Shown: positions 3,321 to 55,514 of the stretch, piece by piece
Position numbering within the stretch: the first letter of the stretch is position 1
Layout: every line of letters begins with the position of its first letter
DNA from: a virus
IMG/VR virus record: IMGVR_UViG_3300015076_000001
Span: 1 to 58,162 of that record
Reading direction: 5' to 3' (one strand)
DNA: 58,162 nt
The notes under the pieces: generated by a model
The model's input: the letters and a program-made list of their open reading frames with translations, nothing else
Told to the model about the DNA's origin: nothing
Databases searched by the model: none
Position numbers and translations under genes: made by a program

Positions 3321-3725
3321 TTAGCCCTGTGCCCGCTGCTGGGCGGCGAGACGGTCTTGGTTGTCTTGGAACTGGTCCAGCCACGGATCCGGGCCGCTGT
3401 GCTTCTGCCACGGCACACCCGCCGCCTCACCCTTGCGATGCCCGCGCACGACGTAGAGCACCGTCTTCTCGGTCCAGTGCTCGGCGAAGCACTGCTGCCC
3501 CGGGGGGAACGTGAACTCCACGAACTCGCCGTCCACCTTCTCCGTGTAGTGCCGACCGCAGGACGCGACCAGCGCGAGGCGGGCGGTGTCGGTGACGGCG
3601 AGGCGGGTGCGCCAGCCGTGGATGTGCTGCGGGCACTCCACCTCTTCACACCTCGCCAGGCGGGTGCGGGGCATCTGGCGTTGGCGGAGCCCGAACGTCT
3701 GCATCTGCGGCGGTGGCGTACCCAT
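3321..3725 (-). CDS. conserved phage protein between two tail tube genes
   Basis: 134 aa, ATG at 3725 in a TGATG overlap with the upstream gene stop, so translation is probably coupled. The N-terminus has a Cys pair near a His (CEEVECPQHIHGW) followed by a third Cys (SCGRHY), suggesting a metal site. The middle is beta-rich with an aromatic tract (VEFTFPPGQQCFAEHW). The C-terminus is a charged helix (DPWLDQFQDNQDRLAAQQ). No known function is recognised. Its place in the tail gene series suggests a tail-associated or assembly role. Confidence 0.75.
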   Translation of the reverse strand: MGTPPPQMQTFGLRQRQMPRTRLARCEEVECPQHIHGWRTRLAVTDTARLALVASCGRHYTEKVDGEFVEFTFPPGQQCFAEHWTEKTVLYVVRGHRKGEAAGVPWQKHSGPDPWLDQFQDNQDRLAAQQRAQG

Positions 3726-4528
3726 CAGAACGCGGGAGCCACGTAGTCGTTGACGACCACAACCACGGCGAACACGCAACTCGTGAACGTGCCGCTTGTG
3801 ACGACGCGCAGGTAGCGCCGCACCGTCTGCGTGGCGGTGGTCGCGATCCGCTGCGCGGTCGGCCCGGTGGCTGCCGTGAAGGCTGCCCCGGTGAGGTCGG
3901 CGAACGTGGAGTTGTCCGCCGAGTCCTGCAATTTCACCGTGCACGACGTGCCGGTCAGAGAGAACACCTCGAGGTACGCCTGCGCCCCGAACGCGGTAGA
4001 CGCCAGAGTCGACCCTCGGTCGATGCTGGCACCGTTGGTGGCAGTGGTGTCGGTGCGCTTCCCGGGGGTGGCCTGCACCCCCCACTCCAACCCGAAGCCG
4101 TTCGCGACCGTGGAGATGTTGAACGTCATCTCGCCGCTGCTGGACCGCTTGCCCGGGTAGTCCAACTGCTTACCCACCATCACCGCGGCGGGTGAGCCGA
4201 GGCCCTGCCCGCGCAGATAGGTGATGATCAGGTCGGTGGCGGGCAAGGGGGCGAAGCGGAGGTGGGCGGCGTTCGCGGCCGGGCCCGGGTTGAAGAACGC
4301 GTCGAAGTCGATGCCGCCGTCACGCATCCCACCGATGCGCTCATGGGCGGACTTGTCGATACCGGTGACGTCGATGGTGGCGACCGACCCGGAGATCTTC
4401 GACAGGGCGCCGATGTCACCGGACACGTCGTAGCCGTGGACGAAAAGTGCGTCGCCGAGGCCCGATTGCTTCACAGGAACCGCCGGTCCGTCGCCCGGGT
4501 ATCCACCCGGATAGTCACCTGGCCACAC
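3725..4528 (-). CDS. second tail tube-like protein
   Basis: 267 aa, GTG at 4528 preceded by AGGAGG with 6-base spacing. The core repeats the signature of the 2808..3197 protein: IDVTGIDKSAHERI, FFNPGPAANAAHLRF and LDYPGKRSSSGEMTFNIS. The N-terminus carries a Pro-Gly-Asp-Tyr motif (PGDYPGGYPGDG). The C-terminal half (about 165-267) is an extra beta domain (AYLEVFSLTGTSCTVKLQDS) ending VNDYVAPAF, which resembles a carbohydrate-binding or Ig-like decoration of the tube. Two tube-type proteins suggest either a mixed tube or one copy specialised as a terminator or base-plate ring. Confidence 0.82.
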   Translation of the reverse strand: MWPGDYPGGYPGDGPAVPVKQSGLGDALFVHGYDVSGDIGALSKISGSVATIDVTGIDKSAHERIGGMRDGGIDFDAFFNPGPAANAAHLRFAPLPATDLIITYLRGQGLGSPAAVMVGKQLDYPGKRSSSGEMTFNISTVANGFGLEWGVQATPGKRTDTTATNGASIDRGSTLASTAFGAQAYLEVFSLTGTSCTVKLQDSADNSTFADLTGAAFTAATGPTAQRIATTATQTVRRYLRVVTSGTFTSCVFAVVVVVNDYVAPAF

Positions 4529-10307: not shown

Positions 10308-10526
10308 TCAGAAACGTTCGCCGCCGAAGCGGCAGAACCGCACACCACCCGGCCCGGAGATCAGGGGTTCGCCGTGGTTGGGGCAGGCCACCAGCAGCCC
10401 AGCCCTGCGGAACGCAGGGTCACGGGCCTCGCGGGTGATGGCGCGCAGGTCACCCCAGCCGCCGCCGATGTCGCCATCGCCGGGGTAGTTGCCGGGGTAG
10501 TCGCCCGGGTAGAAGCCTGCGTGCAT
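10308..10526 (-). CDS. small structural-region protein with PGDYPG motif
   Basis: 72 aa, ATG at 10526 in a TGATG overlap with the upstream gene. It begins MHAGFYPGDYPGNYPGDG, nearly the same Tyr-Pro-Gly-Asp repeat as the start of the second tail tube protein (4528). It continues with a helix (WGDLRAITREARDPAFRRAG) and a Cys pair (ACPNHGEPL, RFCRFGGERF) that could bind metal. Function unknown. Confidence 0.7.
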   Translation of the reverse strand: MHAGFYPGDYPGNYPGDGDIGGGWGDLRAITREARDPAFRRAGLLVACPNHGEPLISGPGGVRFCRFGGERF

Positions 10527-36969: not shown

Positions 36970-37254
36970 ATGACACATGCTCTTGGCCTTGCCGAGTGGC
37001 CTACGCTCTACCCCGTGGGAGCGACGGAAGACGAGCGCGAGGTCAGGGCCGTAATGGGCCGACTGAAGCGCGCTGAGGCCCACGTCAAGGCCGTCCGTGC
37101 CGAGGCCGCGGAAGTCATCGCCGCCAAGGCTGCTCTCGGCAGGCGTCAAGTGGATCTCGTCCGCTGGTCCGGTTACACCCGCGAGCACATCCGCCGCATC
37201 GTCAGGGACGCGAACGGCGACGCGACGGAAGACACTGCCGCCGACTCGGCCTGA
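36970..37254 (+). CDS. small HTH regulator of the rightward cassette
   Basis: 94 aa from ATG at 36970 with AAGGTGG 8 bases upstream; a GTG slightly upstream is possible. A helical region (EDEREVRAVMGRLKRAEAHVKAVRAEAAEVIAAKAAL) is followed by an HTH (GRRQVDLVRWSGYTREHIRRIVRDAN). Same plan as the 29437..29649 protein. It probably binds the palindrome at 36918-36939. Confidence 0.7.
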   Translation: MTHALGLAEWPTLYPVGATEDEREVRAVMGRLKRAEAHVKAVRAEAAEVIAAKAALGRRQVDLVRWSGYTREHIRRIVRDANGDATEDTAADSA

Positions 37255-44759: not shown

Positions 44760-45565
44760 GAGGCCACGTCCTCAACCCGCAGGTGGTTGTGCAGCCACTC
44801 CAAGCCCTTGACCGTCACCCGGATCTGCGGCGGATCAAAGATCAGCTCAGCGGTACGCGGGTGGTAGTGGGACTGCGGAAGCTCCATCAGCCGACCTGAC
44901 TCGATCGCGGTCTGGTAGGCGCGCCACCGCTGGTCGGCGCGGCCCCGGAAGATCCAGCCGAGATCCGACAGAACGGTGAACAGGCGCCGCTCCCCGATCT
45001 TGATGTTGGGGTCGCGAGACAGCAGCTTCGCCGCGTCAGCCACGGACAAGTCACCGGCAGCAGTAGCGAGGGTGTTCCACGACTCGGCCGCCGGAGCCAG
45101 TGCCTTGACCTGCGCCTTAGCGGCGACCAATTCACGGGCGGTGTTGCCCAGGATCTCGACGACAGCGAGGACGCCCTCAGGGGTGGAGATGTCCGGGACC
45201 GCGACGGATGCAGCCGCGACGGCGGCGACTTCGCCACGGCGGTAGCGGGGCAGCAGGTCGGACGTCACCCAGCGCTTGAACTCCCGCGCTTCAGGCTTCG
45301 GCGACTGGAACACCAGGTCGTAGAGGCCGGACTCGTTGACGACCGTGACCTCTTGGACCTGCGGAGCGATACCCCGGAAGTACTGCGGAGTATCTGACCT
45401 GCGCAGACGGCGGACGTCCCGATCATCGACCCGGCGCAGCGCCGACGTGGTGTCCTTGAGGGCGCAGATCGCACAGACGTCGACCGCTAGGAACCACGGC
45501 TCGCCGTCCAGGATGAGGGTCCGGACCTCGTGGTCGCGGAAGGTGAACAGTTCGATCTCGCTCAT
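44756..45565 (-). CDS. phage antirepressor (Bro-N plus KilAC domains)
   Basis: 269 aa, ATG at 45565. Bro-N domain at 1-110 (LFTFRDHEVRTLILDGEPWFLAVDVCAICALKDTTSALRRV, VNESGLYDLVFQSPKPEAREFKRWVTSDLLPRYRRG). KilAC/ANT domain at about 150-265 (DLSVADAAKLLSRDPNIKIGERRLFTVLSDLGWIFRG, IRVTVKGLEWLHNHL). Antirepressors release phage repressors or host regulators. Its place early in the leftward operon, after the divergent promoter, fits a switch role. Confidence 0.9.
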   Translation of the reverse strand: MSEIELFTFRDHEVRTLILDGEPWFLAVDVCAICALKDTTSALRRVDDRDVRRLRRSDTPQYFRGIAPQVQEVTVVNESGLYDLVFQSPKPEAREFKRWVTSDLLPRYRRGEVAAVAAASVAVPDISTPEGVLAVVEILGNTARELVAAKAQVKALAPAAESWNTLATAAGDLSVADAAKLLSRDPNIKIGERRLFTVLSDLGWIFRGRADQRWRAYQTAIESGRLMELPQSHYHPRTAELIFDPPQIRVTVKGLEWLHNHLRVEDVAS

Positions 45566-45849
45566 CGGGTCGCCTCCGCGTTCTTGCTGGCCAGCGCGAA
45601 CTCAGCAAGCCGTTGGATCGCGTCAGCAGCCGCGTACATCGACTTCACGGTGTCGTAGGCCATGTCGGCCGCACGGCTGTCGCGTTGGCCATCGGCCCAC
45701 CGCTCCCGCGTCCGCGCCTTCTTTCGGAGTTCACTGGCGGCGTCGGCTACGCATCGGATGGCGAACGCGTCCAAGTCGACGTCACGGAGCGCTTCGGGCG
45801 GTGATCCGGGGTTCGGGTTGCCCTCTCCGGGGCGGATGAGCTCGCTCAC
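45562..45849 (-). CDS. small helical protein
   Basis: 95 aa, GTG at 45849. VDLDAFAIRCVADAASELRKKARTRERWADGQRDSRAADMAYDTVKSMYAAADAIQRLAEFAL is helical and charged. Not recognised. Confidence 0.6.
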   Translation of the reverse strand: MSELIRPGEGNPNPGSPPEALRDVDLDAFAIRCVADAASELRKKARTRERWADGQRDSRAADMAYDTVKSMYAAADAIQRLAEFALASKNAEATR

Positions 45850-46217
45850 ACCGCACCGCCGCGCAGGATCGCCAGAGCCGACTCAGGCCAGTACGTGCCC
45901 GCGTCCCACGCGTCGTCCGCGGTCTCGTACCGCCAGCACTCCTCTACCTCTCCGTCAACGAGCAGGCCAGGAGCGGCCCAGACGGAGGCGAGGAAGACGT
46001 AGGTGTCGTCGGCCGGGACCGGTTCGCCATCGGCGAGGATCGGACCGCCGGTCGAACCCCAGTCCGACATCAGCCCGGCGTCGGCGTCGGTTATGCCGCG
46101 CTCGACGATGCGGCGGGCGGCGTCGTCCCAGTCGAACACACGCATGCGGGCGTGCTGGTTGGCCTCCGCGCGGACGAACGCGGCCATGGTGCCGATGTCG
46201 GCAGGAAGGTTGTTCAT
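45846..46217 (-). CDS. hypothetical early protein
   Basis: 123 aa, ATG at 46217 in a TGATG overlap. NNLPADIGTMAAFVRAEANQHARMRVFDWDDAARRIVERGITDADAGL then an acidic beta part (GEPVPADDTYVFLASVWAAPGLLVDGEVEECWRYETADDAW). Acidic overall. Not recognised. Confidence 0.62.
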   Translation of the reverse strand: MNNLPADIGTMAAFVRAEANQHARMRVFDWDDAARRIVERGITDADAGLMSDWGSTGGPILADGEPVPADDTYVFLASVWAAPGLLVDGEVEECWRYETADDAWDAGTYWPESALAILRGGAV

Positions 46218-46456: not shown

Positions 46457-46531
46457 CGTGACCCTTCCGTAGCGGTTGGTGTTGCCGCGGATCCCCGTCG
46501 TGTCTTGGCGGATGAGGCGGGGATCCGTGCT

Positions 46532-46629
46532 TGTTTCTGTCGCCACAGAATAGGCCCGAACGGGCCGGTTGCGCAAGTTGATCCGGCGTGTTTCTGTCGC
46601 TACACTTATGGCCATGGCCGTAGCGACAG
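46532..46629. promoter_or_regulatory. divergent promoters with three operator boxes
   Basis: Rightward promoter: TTGATC (46578-46583), 17-base spacer, TACACT (46601-46606), start near the ATG at 46614 (leaderless). Leftward promoter: TTGCGC (46576-46571), 17 bases, TATTCT (46553-46548). Boxes: TGTTTCTGTCGCCACA (46532-46547), TGTTTCTGTCGCTACA (46589-46604) and the inverse GTAGCGACAG (46620-46629). Each -10 touches a box, so one repressor could close both. A TTGCGCAA octamer (46569-46576) lies on the leftward -35. Confidence 0.75.
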
Positions 46630-46994
46630 GACATTGCCCTGACCAGGGCGAACCGTCTACGGTCGCGACCATGGTGGGGCGGCCGAAGACAGGAGTCACC
46701 TTCATCGCCCGCGTCCGCATCCCGAAACCGGAGTGGGACGCGATGGAGGCGGACGCCGAAGTCATTGGGCCCGACCGATCCAAGCTGATCAACGAGTTCG
46801 TCGACATGATCCGACGCGACCCCATCGCCTGGCGCGACGCCCGACGGGTCGCCACAGCACGCGGCGAGACCATCGTCGGCGTCGTCCTCAAGGCCCTGCG
46901 CTCGTACGTCGCCCGCAACCGTGAGCTGCTCATGCCGCCACCAACGGAGACCCGGCCGCCCGAGCAAGCCGCTCCCGAACTGCCCTCGTCCTGA
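46614..46994 (+). CDS. putative ribbon-helix-helix regulator of the divergent promoters
   Basis: 126 aa from ATG at 46614 (second of two in-frame ATGs; the promoter geometry implies a leaderless start). Residues 25-75 (GVTFIARVRIPKPEWDAMEADAEVIGPDRSKLINEFVDMIRRD) look like a ribbon-helix-helix: a strand then two helices. A second helical segment (ARGETIVGVVLKALRSYVARN) and a Pro-rich tail follow. Being under the repeated boxes, it is the natural candidate to bind them. Its 3' end overlaps the LuxR gene on the other strand by 65 bases. Confidence 0.65.
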   Translation: MAVATGHCPDQGEPSTVATMVGRPKTGVTFIARVRIPKPEWDAMEADAEVIGPDRSKLINEFVDMIRRDPIAWRDARRVATARGETIVGVVLKALRSYVARNRELLMPPPTETRPPEQAAPELPSS

Positions 46995-47262
46995 GCAGCT
47001 CTTGCTCGTACGCAATCGCCACCGCGTGCGCCCGATCCGTCGCACCGATCTGGCGCAACGTGCGCGCGACGTGACCCTTCACGGTGGCGAACGCGACGCC
47101 CAGATGGGCCGCGATCTGCTCATTCGTCCAGCCCTGCGCCACCCCGCACAGCACGTCGCACTGCCGAGATGTCAGCCCGAGAGCACGCGCTACCTGCTCG
47201 TCAACCCATCGCTCTCTTCCCTTTCCCTCTTCTTCTGGGGGGCGGGAACCGTCGGCGCTCAC
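46930..47262 (-). CDS. LuxR-type HTH regulator
   Basis: 110 aa, GTG at 47262. A GerE-type domain fills residues 18-85: VDEQVARALGLTSRQCDVLCGVAQGWTNEQIAAHLGVAFATVKGHVARTLRQIGATDRAHAVAIA. There is no receiver or sensor domain. Last gene of the leftward transcript from 53 kb. It could control late genes. Confidence 0.82.
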   Translation of the reverse strand: MSADGSRPPEEEGKGRERWVDEQVARALGLTSRQCDVLCGVAQGWTNEQIAAHLGVAFATVKGHVARTLRQIGATDRAHAVAIAYEQELLRTRAVRERLARAAGSPLVAA

Positions 47263-47519: not shown

Positions 47520-47791
47520 AACCGACCCCTGTAATCGACGTGGACGTCATCGACAGGCAGCCGCGGGTTCCCCCACGACGTCGACGGCCGCGGCGGAGGA
47601 CCCCCAAGAGTCGTGAGCCGAGCCCGGTCCGCCACATCGGCCCGCAACCGTTCGATCTCTTTGCCCCGCCGGTCGTACTCGGCCATGACCGCTTGCGCGT
47701 CTACTCCGAGTGGTGACTGCTCACTGGCGAGGATGCGGAGCGCGTTCTCGTGGGCTCGCAGGAAACCGGCGGCCTGCTCGTCGGCGGTCAC
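47516..47791 (-). CDS. small helical protein
   Basis: 91 aa. TADEQAAGFLRAHENALRILASEQSPLGVDAQAVMAEYDRRGKEIERLRADVADRARLTTLG is helical, with a Pro-rich end. Coupled to the glycosyltransferase gene. Not recognised. Confidence 0.6.
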   Translation of the reverse strand: MTADEQAAGFLRAHENALRILASEQSPLGVDAQAVMAEYDRRGKEIERLRADVADRARLTTLGGPPPRPSTSWGNPRLPVDDVHVDYRGRL

Positions 47792-49116
47792 GCGGCCACC
47801 TCGAGCTCGACAACCTCAGCGCCGGTGGCGCGGGTTCCCCAGTTGGTGGAGCGCAGCGTGCACAGCGACCAGATCCGCAGCGGCAGCAACACGAGGACGT
47901 GCAACATCCCGTACAAGGGGGCGAGCAGGAACACCGCCAACTGCTGGACGCGGGGATAGTCGGGGCGGCGCACCGAGAACACGTGGACGGATCGGGCGTA
48001 GCCACCCAACGTGACCCACACGAGGTAGTCCACGACATGCACCTCGCCGGTGATGGCGGGCAACACGAACAGGGTGAAGAACAGTCCACCGGTGAAGCCT
48101 GCCCACGACACGGTCTCCACCAATGCAAGCCACCAGGCGGGACGACGCGGGGACAGATGAGTCAGCGACCACAGGGACTCGCGGAAGAACGACCGGCCCC
48201 AGCGAATCTGTTGACGGATCAGATGCCCGCCCTTCTCCGGGACGGCGGTGCGCGCGACCGCCGAGTGGGCGAGCACAACCCGCCCGTGCAGCAGCGACAG
48301 GTTGGTGAGGTGGCGGTCGTCGCCGTACGTGGCGGGCTGGCCCAGGAAGGTTTGCCCCAGGAAGTCCTCGAGGTGAGCCTTGACGATGTCGGCCCGCCAA
48401 AACGCCAACGACCCGCACACGCACAGCACCGCACCCAACCTCGAGTAGGCGGCCCGCTCGTACAGGAACGCGTTCACATACCGCAGGTCCAACAGCCGCG
48501 GCAGCAGCCCGGAAGCATGGTTGAGCGCGACAACGGTTCCGGTGACAGCGGCGGTACGCGGGTCGGTGAACGGCGCCAACCCCTCCCGGATCGCGCCGGG
48601 CTCGAGCACGGTGTCGGAGTCGACACACACGAACACATCCACCAGGTCGGCGAGCTCGGCGAACGCCCGCCCCATCGCGGCCCGCTTGCCCGCGTTGTGC
48701 TGCCACACCACCGTCGCCCCTCGAACCCTCGAGGCCCAATCGGTGGCGACCCCATAGGCAGCGGGATCAGTGGAACCGTCATCGACGATCCGCACGAACA
48801 CGGGCTGATGCGTTTGACGACCGATCGACTTGAGGCAGCGGGCCAGCGTGGCGGGATCCTCGTTGAAGATCGGCACCACCACGCACACCCGCGTCGTCGA
48901 CAGCGCGGGCGACCACTGCTGCGGCGGCGCCAGTGACAGCCCCAGCTTCACCGCCAGCAGCACACCCACCGTTGCGCCATAAACGCCCCACACGTGGGCG
49001 CTGTGCGCCAGCCACACGACGGCCACTGAGGTGATGAGGGTGGCGACGGCGAGGGTTGCGGCAGGGTTGGGGCGGGTGGTGATCTCGACCAGCCGCAACC
49101 GGTGACGGCCGCTCAC
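47788..49116 (-). CDS. hyaluronan-synthase-like membrane glycosyltransferase (GT2)
   Basis: 442 aa from GTG at 49116. Two N-terminal membrane helices (about 18-38, 44-62), then the GT2 catalytic domain: VCVVVPIFNEDPATLARCLKSI, VDDGSTD (112), VCVDSDTVLEPGA (DxD near 166), YGDDRHLTN (265) and QQIRWGRS (302-309), the set of processive synthases. Three or four C-terminal helices follow (about 330-420). It probably builds or modifies a surface glycan using UDP-sugar, more likely changing the host envelope than phage DNA. Confidence 0.9.
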   Translation of the reverse strand: MSGRHRLRLVEITTRPNPAATLAVATLITSVAVVWLAHSAHVWGVYGATVGVLLAVKLGLSLAPPQQWSPALSTTRVCVVVPIFNEDPATLARCLKSIGRQTHQPVFVRIVDDGSTDPAAYGVATDWASRVRGATVVWQHNAGKRAAMGRAFAELADLVDVFVCVDSDTVLEPGAIREGLAPFTDPRTAAVTGTVVALNHASGLLPRLLDLRYVNAFLYERAAYSRLGAVLCVCGSLAFWRADIVKAHLEDFLGQTFLGQPATYGDDRHLTNLSLLHGRVVLAHSAVARTAVPEKGGHLIRQQIRWGRSFFRESLWSLTHLSPRRPAWWLALVETVSWAGFTGGLFFTLFVLPAITGEVHVVDYLVWVTLGGYARSVHVFSVRRPDYPRVQQLAVFLLAPLYGMLHVLVLLPLRIWSLCTLRSTNWGTRATGAEVVELEVAA

Positions 49117-53030: not shown

Positions 53031-53069
53031 CTGCGCATATTGCTAGTGATTCTTGCGCGTGTTGCGCAA
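53031..53069 (-). promoter_or_regulatory. operator boxes (TTGCGCAA-like) for the accessory operon
   Basis: CTGCGCAT (53031-53038), TTGCGCGT (53053-53060) and TTGCGCAA (53062-53069). The last two, 9 bases apart, match the pair at 55035-55051 in 15 of 17 positions (TTGCGCGTGTTGCGCAA versus TTGCGCATGTTGCGCAG). An AGAGCA element flanks both sites. One repressor probably controls both promoters. Confidence 0.72.
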
Positions 53070-53128: not shown

Positions 53129-53167
53129 GAACCCCCGCTGCCTGTGCACCTCAGGCGGCGGGGGTTC
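53129..53167 (-). terminator. 16-bp hairpin terminator
   Basis: Arms GAACCCCCGCTGCCTG / CAGGCGGCGGGGGTTC pair over 16 bp with one G-U, loop TGCACCT. A second weaker hairpin (CCCGACAG ... CTGTCGGG) lies just beyond at about 53174-53210. It separates the operon ending at 53330 from the promoter at 53 kb. Confidence 0.75.
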
Positions 53168-54985: not shown

Positions 54986-55012
54986 CGGGCGGTCGCCGTC
55001 TCAAGATGATCC

Positions 55013-55064
55013 ATGCGCAAATTAGAGCACACTCTTGCGCATGTTGCGCAGAAGTGTTGCGCAA
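55013..55064. promoter_or_regulatory. operator array of the immunity-like switch
   Basis: Four boxes related to TTGCGCAA: ATGCGCAA (55013-55020), TTGCGCAT (55035-55042), TTGCGCAG (55044-55051) and TTGCGCAA (55057-55064). The array separates the leftward gene at 54985 from the rightward repressor-like gene at 55179. AT-rich TCTAAT between boxes one and two may be the leftward -10. Confidence 0.72.
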
Positions 55065-55166
55065 TAGTGGCGATCATGTGCGCTACCTGCGACTCTGCCT
55101 CCCGTGACGGGGCAAATCGAACGAGTGATCATCGATCCAGGCGCGCTAGGTAAGCAGAGTCCTGCG

Positions 55167-55172
55167 TATTCT
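55167..55172 (+). promoter_or_regulatory. -10 box of a leaderless promoter for the repressor-like gene
   Basis: TATTCT lies 6 bases before the GTG at 55179, so transcription would begin at or next to the start codon. No good -35 was seen. Confidence 0.5.
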
Positions 55173-55178
55173 TCCGCC

Positions 55179-55514
55179 GTGAAGTGGACCGCGGAGGAGA
55201 TCCGCAGCCGACGCCGCGCCAAAGACTGGTCGCAAGACGACCTCGCTCAAGCGCTCGGCGTCCACAAGAGGTCGGTCACCAACTGGGAGTCGGGCGCGTC
55301 CAAGCCGCAGGCCGGGAACATCGACGCGCTGGAGCACGCGCTCGGGGACGCGCCGGTCCCGGAGGTGACTTTGTCGGGCGCGTCGAACCTGCAATTCGTG
55401 TCCGAGCTTGCGCGAAGACTGGAAGCGGGCGGGCTGGACGACAGCCTCAGATTGCCCGAAGGGGACATCGGGTGGCCGCAACGGAAGTTGACGCGGCGTA
55501 GCCGTAACGCCTGA
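55179..55514 (+). CDS. XRE-type HTH repressor candidate
   Basis: 111 aa from GTG at 55179 (leaderless). Residues 1-58 are a clear XRE domain: VKWTAEEIRSRRRAKDWSQDDLAQALGVHKRSVTNWESGASKPQAGNIDALEHALG. The C-terminal part (NLQFVSELARRLEAGGLDDSLRLPEGDIGWP) may oligomerise. It has no LexA-type peptidase, so induction would need another signal such as the antirepressor. It probably binds the TTGCGCAA boxes and maintains lysogeny. Confidence 0.78.
   Translation: MKWTAEEIRSRRRAKDWSQDDLAQALGVHKRSVTNWESGASKPQAGNIDALEHALGDAPVPEVTLSGASNLQFVSELARRLEAGGLDDSLRLPEGDIGWPQRKLTRRSRNA

Follow-up and report, generated by a model that had tools for sequence, protein, structure and literature searches.

In this study, we analysed a single virus record of 58,162 bp (67% G+C; its whole length is called the window here) and found that a gene matching Arc-like repressors diverges from an operon encoding an antirepressor. 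The promoter region between them carries three copies of a sequence box that is absent from the rest of the window, as well as an octamer that recurs in the gap we take to be the primary switch. On sequence grounds, the best-supported reading is that this region is a second decision switch, as an earlier note on the same DNA had proposed. The divergent gene order, the boxes at both predicted starts and the motif in common with the main XRE switch all speak for that proposal, although its promoter details were partly wrong and the leftward start codon is doubtful. Our more specific interpretation, that the region serves a temperate phage as a secondary immunity module, comparable to immI of P22 and linked to the primary repressor, is an analogy in which binding and activity are inferred, and we consider the chances of its being right to be about even.

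Source virus and presumed primary switch

The ATPase gene of the virus has ~69% DNA identity to its Mycobacterium and Gordonia phage counterparts, and within the phage set its antirepressor and serine integrase come closest to proteins of Gordonia phages. The integrase gene (57539-56076, minus strand) is at the right end of the window, together with an XRE repressor-like gene (55179-55514, plus strand) and a second XRE gene divergent from it (54985-54683, minus strand). This XRE pair was taken as the primary switch and, being ~8.5 kb from the promoter region between the ribbon-helix-helix (RHH) and antirepressor genes, it is a separate locus. Usable relatives of the XRE repressor were not found, nor was a close one in viral contigs. 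Elsewhere in the window there is a GtrB-like glycosyltransferase gene (47788-49116, minus strand; PHROG 841, E 4.5e-5), a possible surface-modifying moron, and two separate proteins (3725-4528 and 10308-10526, minus strand) have similar YPGDYPG-type repeats near their N-terminus.

The rightward RHH gene

The rightward gene (46614-46994, plus strand) encodes 126 aa from ATG 46614. It had been suggested to encode a possible RHH protein, a suggestion strengthened by a match to PHROG 6506, "Arc-like repressor" (E 3.3e-6, residues 25-63 of a 128-aa reading). A single-sequence AF2 model has a strand-helix-helix arrangement (E30-37, H38-51, H55-68) plus two helices at low confidence (pLDDT 56); the assignment to the RHH (Arc/Mnt-like) regulators, drawn from one family match and this low-confidence model, is thus putative. 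Searches of viral contigs, phages, plasmids and genome contigs returned no convincing relatives, those of 394 Actinopolyspora-class genomes gave borderline matches only (best E 1e-3), and a PDB sequence search produced nothing meaningful. The "Arc-like repressor" gp32 of phage BritBrat was rejected as a relative as it aligns with the C-terminal helices only. A GerE/LuxR-type DNA-binding gene (46930-47262, minus strand; GerE E 9e-14) is convergent with the RHH gene and overlaps it by 65 bp.

A toxin-antitoxin reading of the RHH gene was rejected because there is no toxin gene: no plus-strand gene comes after it, and the LuxR-type gene is convergent. A broader version of that idea is that the protein, whether antitoxin-like or an orphan regulator, controls itself alone, its position beside the antirepressor operon being irrelevant to lysogeny. 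A weak PSK_trans_fac (VapB-like) match in the C-terminal part of the protein, below the cut-off, agrees with it; however, besides the missing toxin gene on the plus strand, one of the boxes described below abuts the leftward -10, and we regard this explanation as improbable.

Divergent promoter-like pairs and start codons

Two promoter-like pairs face apart, the rightward one being TTGATC-17-TACACT (46578-46606, plus strand) and the leftward one TTGCGC-18-TATTCT (46576-46547, minus strand). The earlier note had described two consensus promoters with 17-bp spacers; the divergent arrangement and the rightward spacer were as described, but the leftward one has 18 bp and the pairs match the consensus at only 8/12 and 7/12 positions, respectively. 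A promoter scan of 44-50 kb at a 9-of-12 cut-off returned no promoter. Both pairs do fit the actinobacterial TANNNT form by sequence, and three of the only five TTGNNN-16/18-TANNNT sites in the window are at 46547-46663. There is no overall excess of TTGNNN/TANNNT sites (5, compared to 6.7 in shuffles), and the number of divergent pairs (2, against a shuffle mean of 0.02) overstates the case as the site had already been seen when that criterion was chosen.

The suggestion that the rightward gene is leaderless fits the spacing, although which ATG would be the start is less clear. ATG 46614 starts 7 nt past the -10 of the rightward pair, and ATG 46671, which would give 107 aa and was favoured by a codon-usage gene caller, is 7 nt downstream of an alternative promoter-like pair, TTGCCC-18-TACGGT (46634-46663, plus strand). 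For both codons, the distance from the centre of TANNNT to the ATG is 10.5 bp, and neither is preceded by a clear SD; a further in-frame ATG lies upstream at 46608. In M. tuberculosis, leaderless genes make up approximately one quarter of those with a primary start site, and TANNNT is found 7-12 bp from such genes, a range that includes the 10.5 bp of both codons (PMC3898074). The segment just before ATG 46671 (46636-46670) also contains a dyad, GCCCTG-AC-CAGGGC, and the perfect palindrome GGTCGCGACC.

CTGTCGCYAC boxes

The repeated CTGTCGCYAC boxes to which the earlier note had drawn attention are real: there are three exact copies within 93 bp, confined to 46537-46629, and none elsewhere in the 58,162 bp, whereas dinucleotide shuffles had a mean of 0.38 copies and a maximum of 2. 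The boxes had been thought to touch the -10 elements, which is the case for box 1 (CTGTCGCCAC, 46537-46546, plus strand), which abuts the leftward -10, and for box 2 (CTGTCGCTAC, 46594-46603, plus strand), which shares 3 bp with the rightward -10, but not for box 3 (CTGTCGCTAC, 46620-46629, minus strand), which is 13 bp downstream of the rightward -10 and just inside the predicted rightward transcript. Boxes 1 and 2 are held in a direct repeat (46529-46547 and 46586-46604, 17/19 identical) that is longer than had been stated. Box 3 is inverted relative to box 2, and the two make up a perfect inverted repeat with 10-bp arms, separated by 16 bp and centred at 46611-46612, at the predicted rightward start; the whole window has only 12 perfect inverted repeats with arms of at least 10 and a loop of at most 25. 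Exact TGTTTCTGTCGCYACA had 31 single matches in viral contigs, none near an RHH relative.

It is conceivable, but in our estimation quite unlikely, that the boxes belong to another regulator, such as the LuxR-type (GerE) protein encoded next door at 47262-46930, and that the RHH protein has its role elsewhere. For LuxR-type proteins, dyads with CTGT/ACAG arms are known, and box 1 is inside a perfect dyad of that kind, TTCTGT-CGCC-ACAGAA (46535-46550). However, the full dyad is present at box 1 only and its arms are closer together than those of typical lux boxes, while boxes 2 and 3 surround the RHH gene's own start, for which autoregulation by the RHH protein is a better fit.

The antirepressor operon and its predicted leader

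The leftward operon had been described as opening with a Cys-rich protein and soon reaching an antirepressor, which is what the gene content confirms. Its first ORF (46546-46217, minus strand) is Cys-rich, without relatives in our searches, and would encode 109 aa from GTG 46546 or 79 aa from TTG 46456. The GTG cannot be the start from the leftward promoter because it follows the -10 but precedes the expected start site, and TTG 46456, with the SD GGAAGG (46468-46463) 6 nt upstream, is the more likely start. The second ORF (45846-46217, minus strand) encodes a 123-aa protein that has relatives in the phage set only among Stenotrophomonas phages, at 55% identity, and the third (45562-45849, minus strand) a 95-aa protein with no family match. 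The antirepressor (45565-44756, minus strand) is the fourth gene of this long operon and has both Bro-N and KilAC domains (Pfam E 1.5e-20 and 3e-20; PHROG 130, E 8e-56). No RHH match was obtained among the three ORFs preceding it, which are orphans.

Between GTG 46546 and TTG 46456, a hairpin (46527-46488, minus strand) with a 10-bp perfect stem and a 20-nt loop is part of the predicted leftward leader (z -2.5 for the leader); Rfam had no match. A syntenic prophage locus, L053, in a MAG labelled Gemmatimonadetes, has an antirepressor 50% identical to that of the window, preceded by a leader with an 11-bp stem and an 18-nt loop and then CAACC, an SD and ATG. The stems have TCCCCG/CGGGGA in common, and at three outer pairs both sides have different bases yet pairing is kept. 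Such paired changes are only suggestive as there are two sequences and a DNA dyad would change likewise, and the core TCCCCG/CGGGGA alone arises by chance in one quarter of shuffles.

An octamer common to three promoter gaps

The octamer TTGCGCAA has three exact copies in the window, at 46569, 53062 and 55057, all of which are in gaps between called genes; shuffles had a mean of 0.59 copies, with at least three in 2.3%. The first (46569-46576) overlies the leftward -35, as had been reported, and is part of a putative primary-repressor site, TTGCGCAAGTTG (46569-46580), that adjoins the rightward -35. In the main XRE divergent gap (54986-55178), the exact copy at 55057 is accompanied by near copies at 55013, 55035 and 55044, giving four TTGCGCA-type sites in 52 bp (55013-55064), whereas shuffles never had more than two in 60 bp. 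The third promoter gap contains TTGCGCGTGTTGCGCAA (53053-53069), upstream of a leftward gene (53010-52612). The gap adjoining it has a strong, GC-rich hairpin (53129-53167; z -3.25 for its surroundings, no T run) that could be the terminator of the operon from the main switch, in which case 53.06 kb would be a separate promoter.

Alignment of the three gaps produced the extended match TTGCGCRNGTTG, of which there are four exact copies compared to 0.05 expected, a comparison that is descriptive only since three of the four sites had served to derive the pattern. Three copies are in the promoter gaps and the fourth, at 26734, is inside a gene. The motif tests were in part framed after seeing the sequence. 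Among the matches listed for the compound operator TTGCGCRYGTTGCGCA in viral contigs there were no convincing clusters, and their number was presumably near chance level, by our own rough estimate. The 9-mers present both in the L053 gap and in its likely main gaps revealed no clear common operator. The sharing of the octamer and the excess of TTGCGCRNGTTG suggest that the antirepressor promoter region is probably tied to primary immunity.

An alternative is an ordinary early promoter of the phage under the primary repressor, similar to PL and PR of lambda, with the RHH gene an unrelated passenger that has its own promoter and the boxes a local duplication. The octamer in three promoter gaps is consistent with such a promoter, and the 17/19 direct repeat holding boxes 1 and 2 is what a duplication would leave. 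However, box 3 is inverted, is outside the 19-bp repeat and, together with box 2, makes up the perfect dyad at the rightward start, and we consider this explanation unlikely.

A model for the proposed second switch

In the reading that we favour, that of a second decision switch, the phage would be temperate, with actinobacteriophage-like genes, and its leaderless rightward gene would produce an RHH repressor with the CTGTCGCYAC boxes as its binding sites. Through box 1, at the leftward start, the repressor would shut the antirepressor operon, and through boxes 2 and 3 it would limit its own synthesis. The primary XRE repressor would also bind TTGCGCAA over the leftward -35, so that the operon would be silent in a lysogen and open once one or both repressors were lost, whereupon the antirepressor would disable the primary repressor. 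The positions and rarity of the motifs, the shared octamer, the gene content and the family matches are direct observations; from these we infer promoter activity, who binds what, the direction of the effects and the action of the antirepressor on the XRE repressor.

In lambda, the centre of OR2 is ~41 bp upstream of the PRM start, as is that of 46569-46576 relative to the predicted rightward start. Accordingly placed, the primary repressor may repress the antirepressor operon and activate the RHH gene, with a conserved leader hairpin adding a layer of control, an elaboration that we put forward as speculative and rather unlikely. The repetition of an operator-like motif in several early promoter gaps of the window also recalls the CI/Cro sites at OL and OR of lambda, but, unlike in the lambda switch, the second site in the window would control an antirepressor operon together with an RHH gene.

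Comparison with other phages

The closest parallel is P22, whose Mnt and Arc proteins have the RHH fold and in which the ant operon diverges from an RHH gene. Mnt is the repressor of both arc and ant, and Arc that of mnt, with a moderating effect on ant as well (PMC11016777), a logic described in PMC8022706 and PMC11016777. As in immI, the window has a secondary region, apart from the primary switch, with an RHH gene divergent from an antirepressor operon. However, P22 has two RHH genes, with arc ahead of ant, whereas one was found in the window and the antirepressor is fourth in its operon; in addition, the window promoter is overlain by a putative primary-repressor site and its antirepressor is of the Bro-N/KilAC type. 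The weak consensus of the promoters, an RHH protein that lacks close relatives and the position of the antirepressor, not directly behind a second RHH gene, argue against the P22-like reading. If that reading is correct, RHH control of an antirepressor, textbook in P22, would also exist in a high-GC phage with actinobacteriophage-like genes, antirepressor control would be wired directly to the primary repressor through a shared operator, and the region would be a compact model of two repressors sharing one lysis-lysogeny decision.

Bro-N/KilAC-type antirepressors are also present in the cro-ant early operons of the Gordonia/Mycobacterium phages Phistory, CarolAnn, Jung and Che8. In those phages no more than a few genes separate the antirepressor from the primary repressor gap, and in BritBrat it is in the same operon, about nine genes further along, whereas in the window it is ~9.4 kb from that gap and has its own divergent regulator. 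TF-smORF modules also pair a regulator gene with a divergent repressor-inactivating gene, but their TFs activate a small orphan protein (PMC10432266), whereas we propose repression of a domain-bearing antirepressor.

A scan of 36 related antirepressor loci identified a divergent upstream gene in 27 and none in the available upstream DNA of the other nine. By eye, 23 of the 27 divergent genes are HTH/XRE-like (the exceptions being those of L200, L206, L210 and L279) and none is RHH-like. The window is therefore unusual in that, as in P22, a distant antirepressor is paired with an RHH gene. The divergent gene of L053, across a 164-bp gap, encodes a 68-aa protein that is HTH-like in appearance. 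By eye, this protein resembles the 66-aa product of a lone plus-strand gene near leftward genes of the window (37054-37254).
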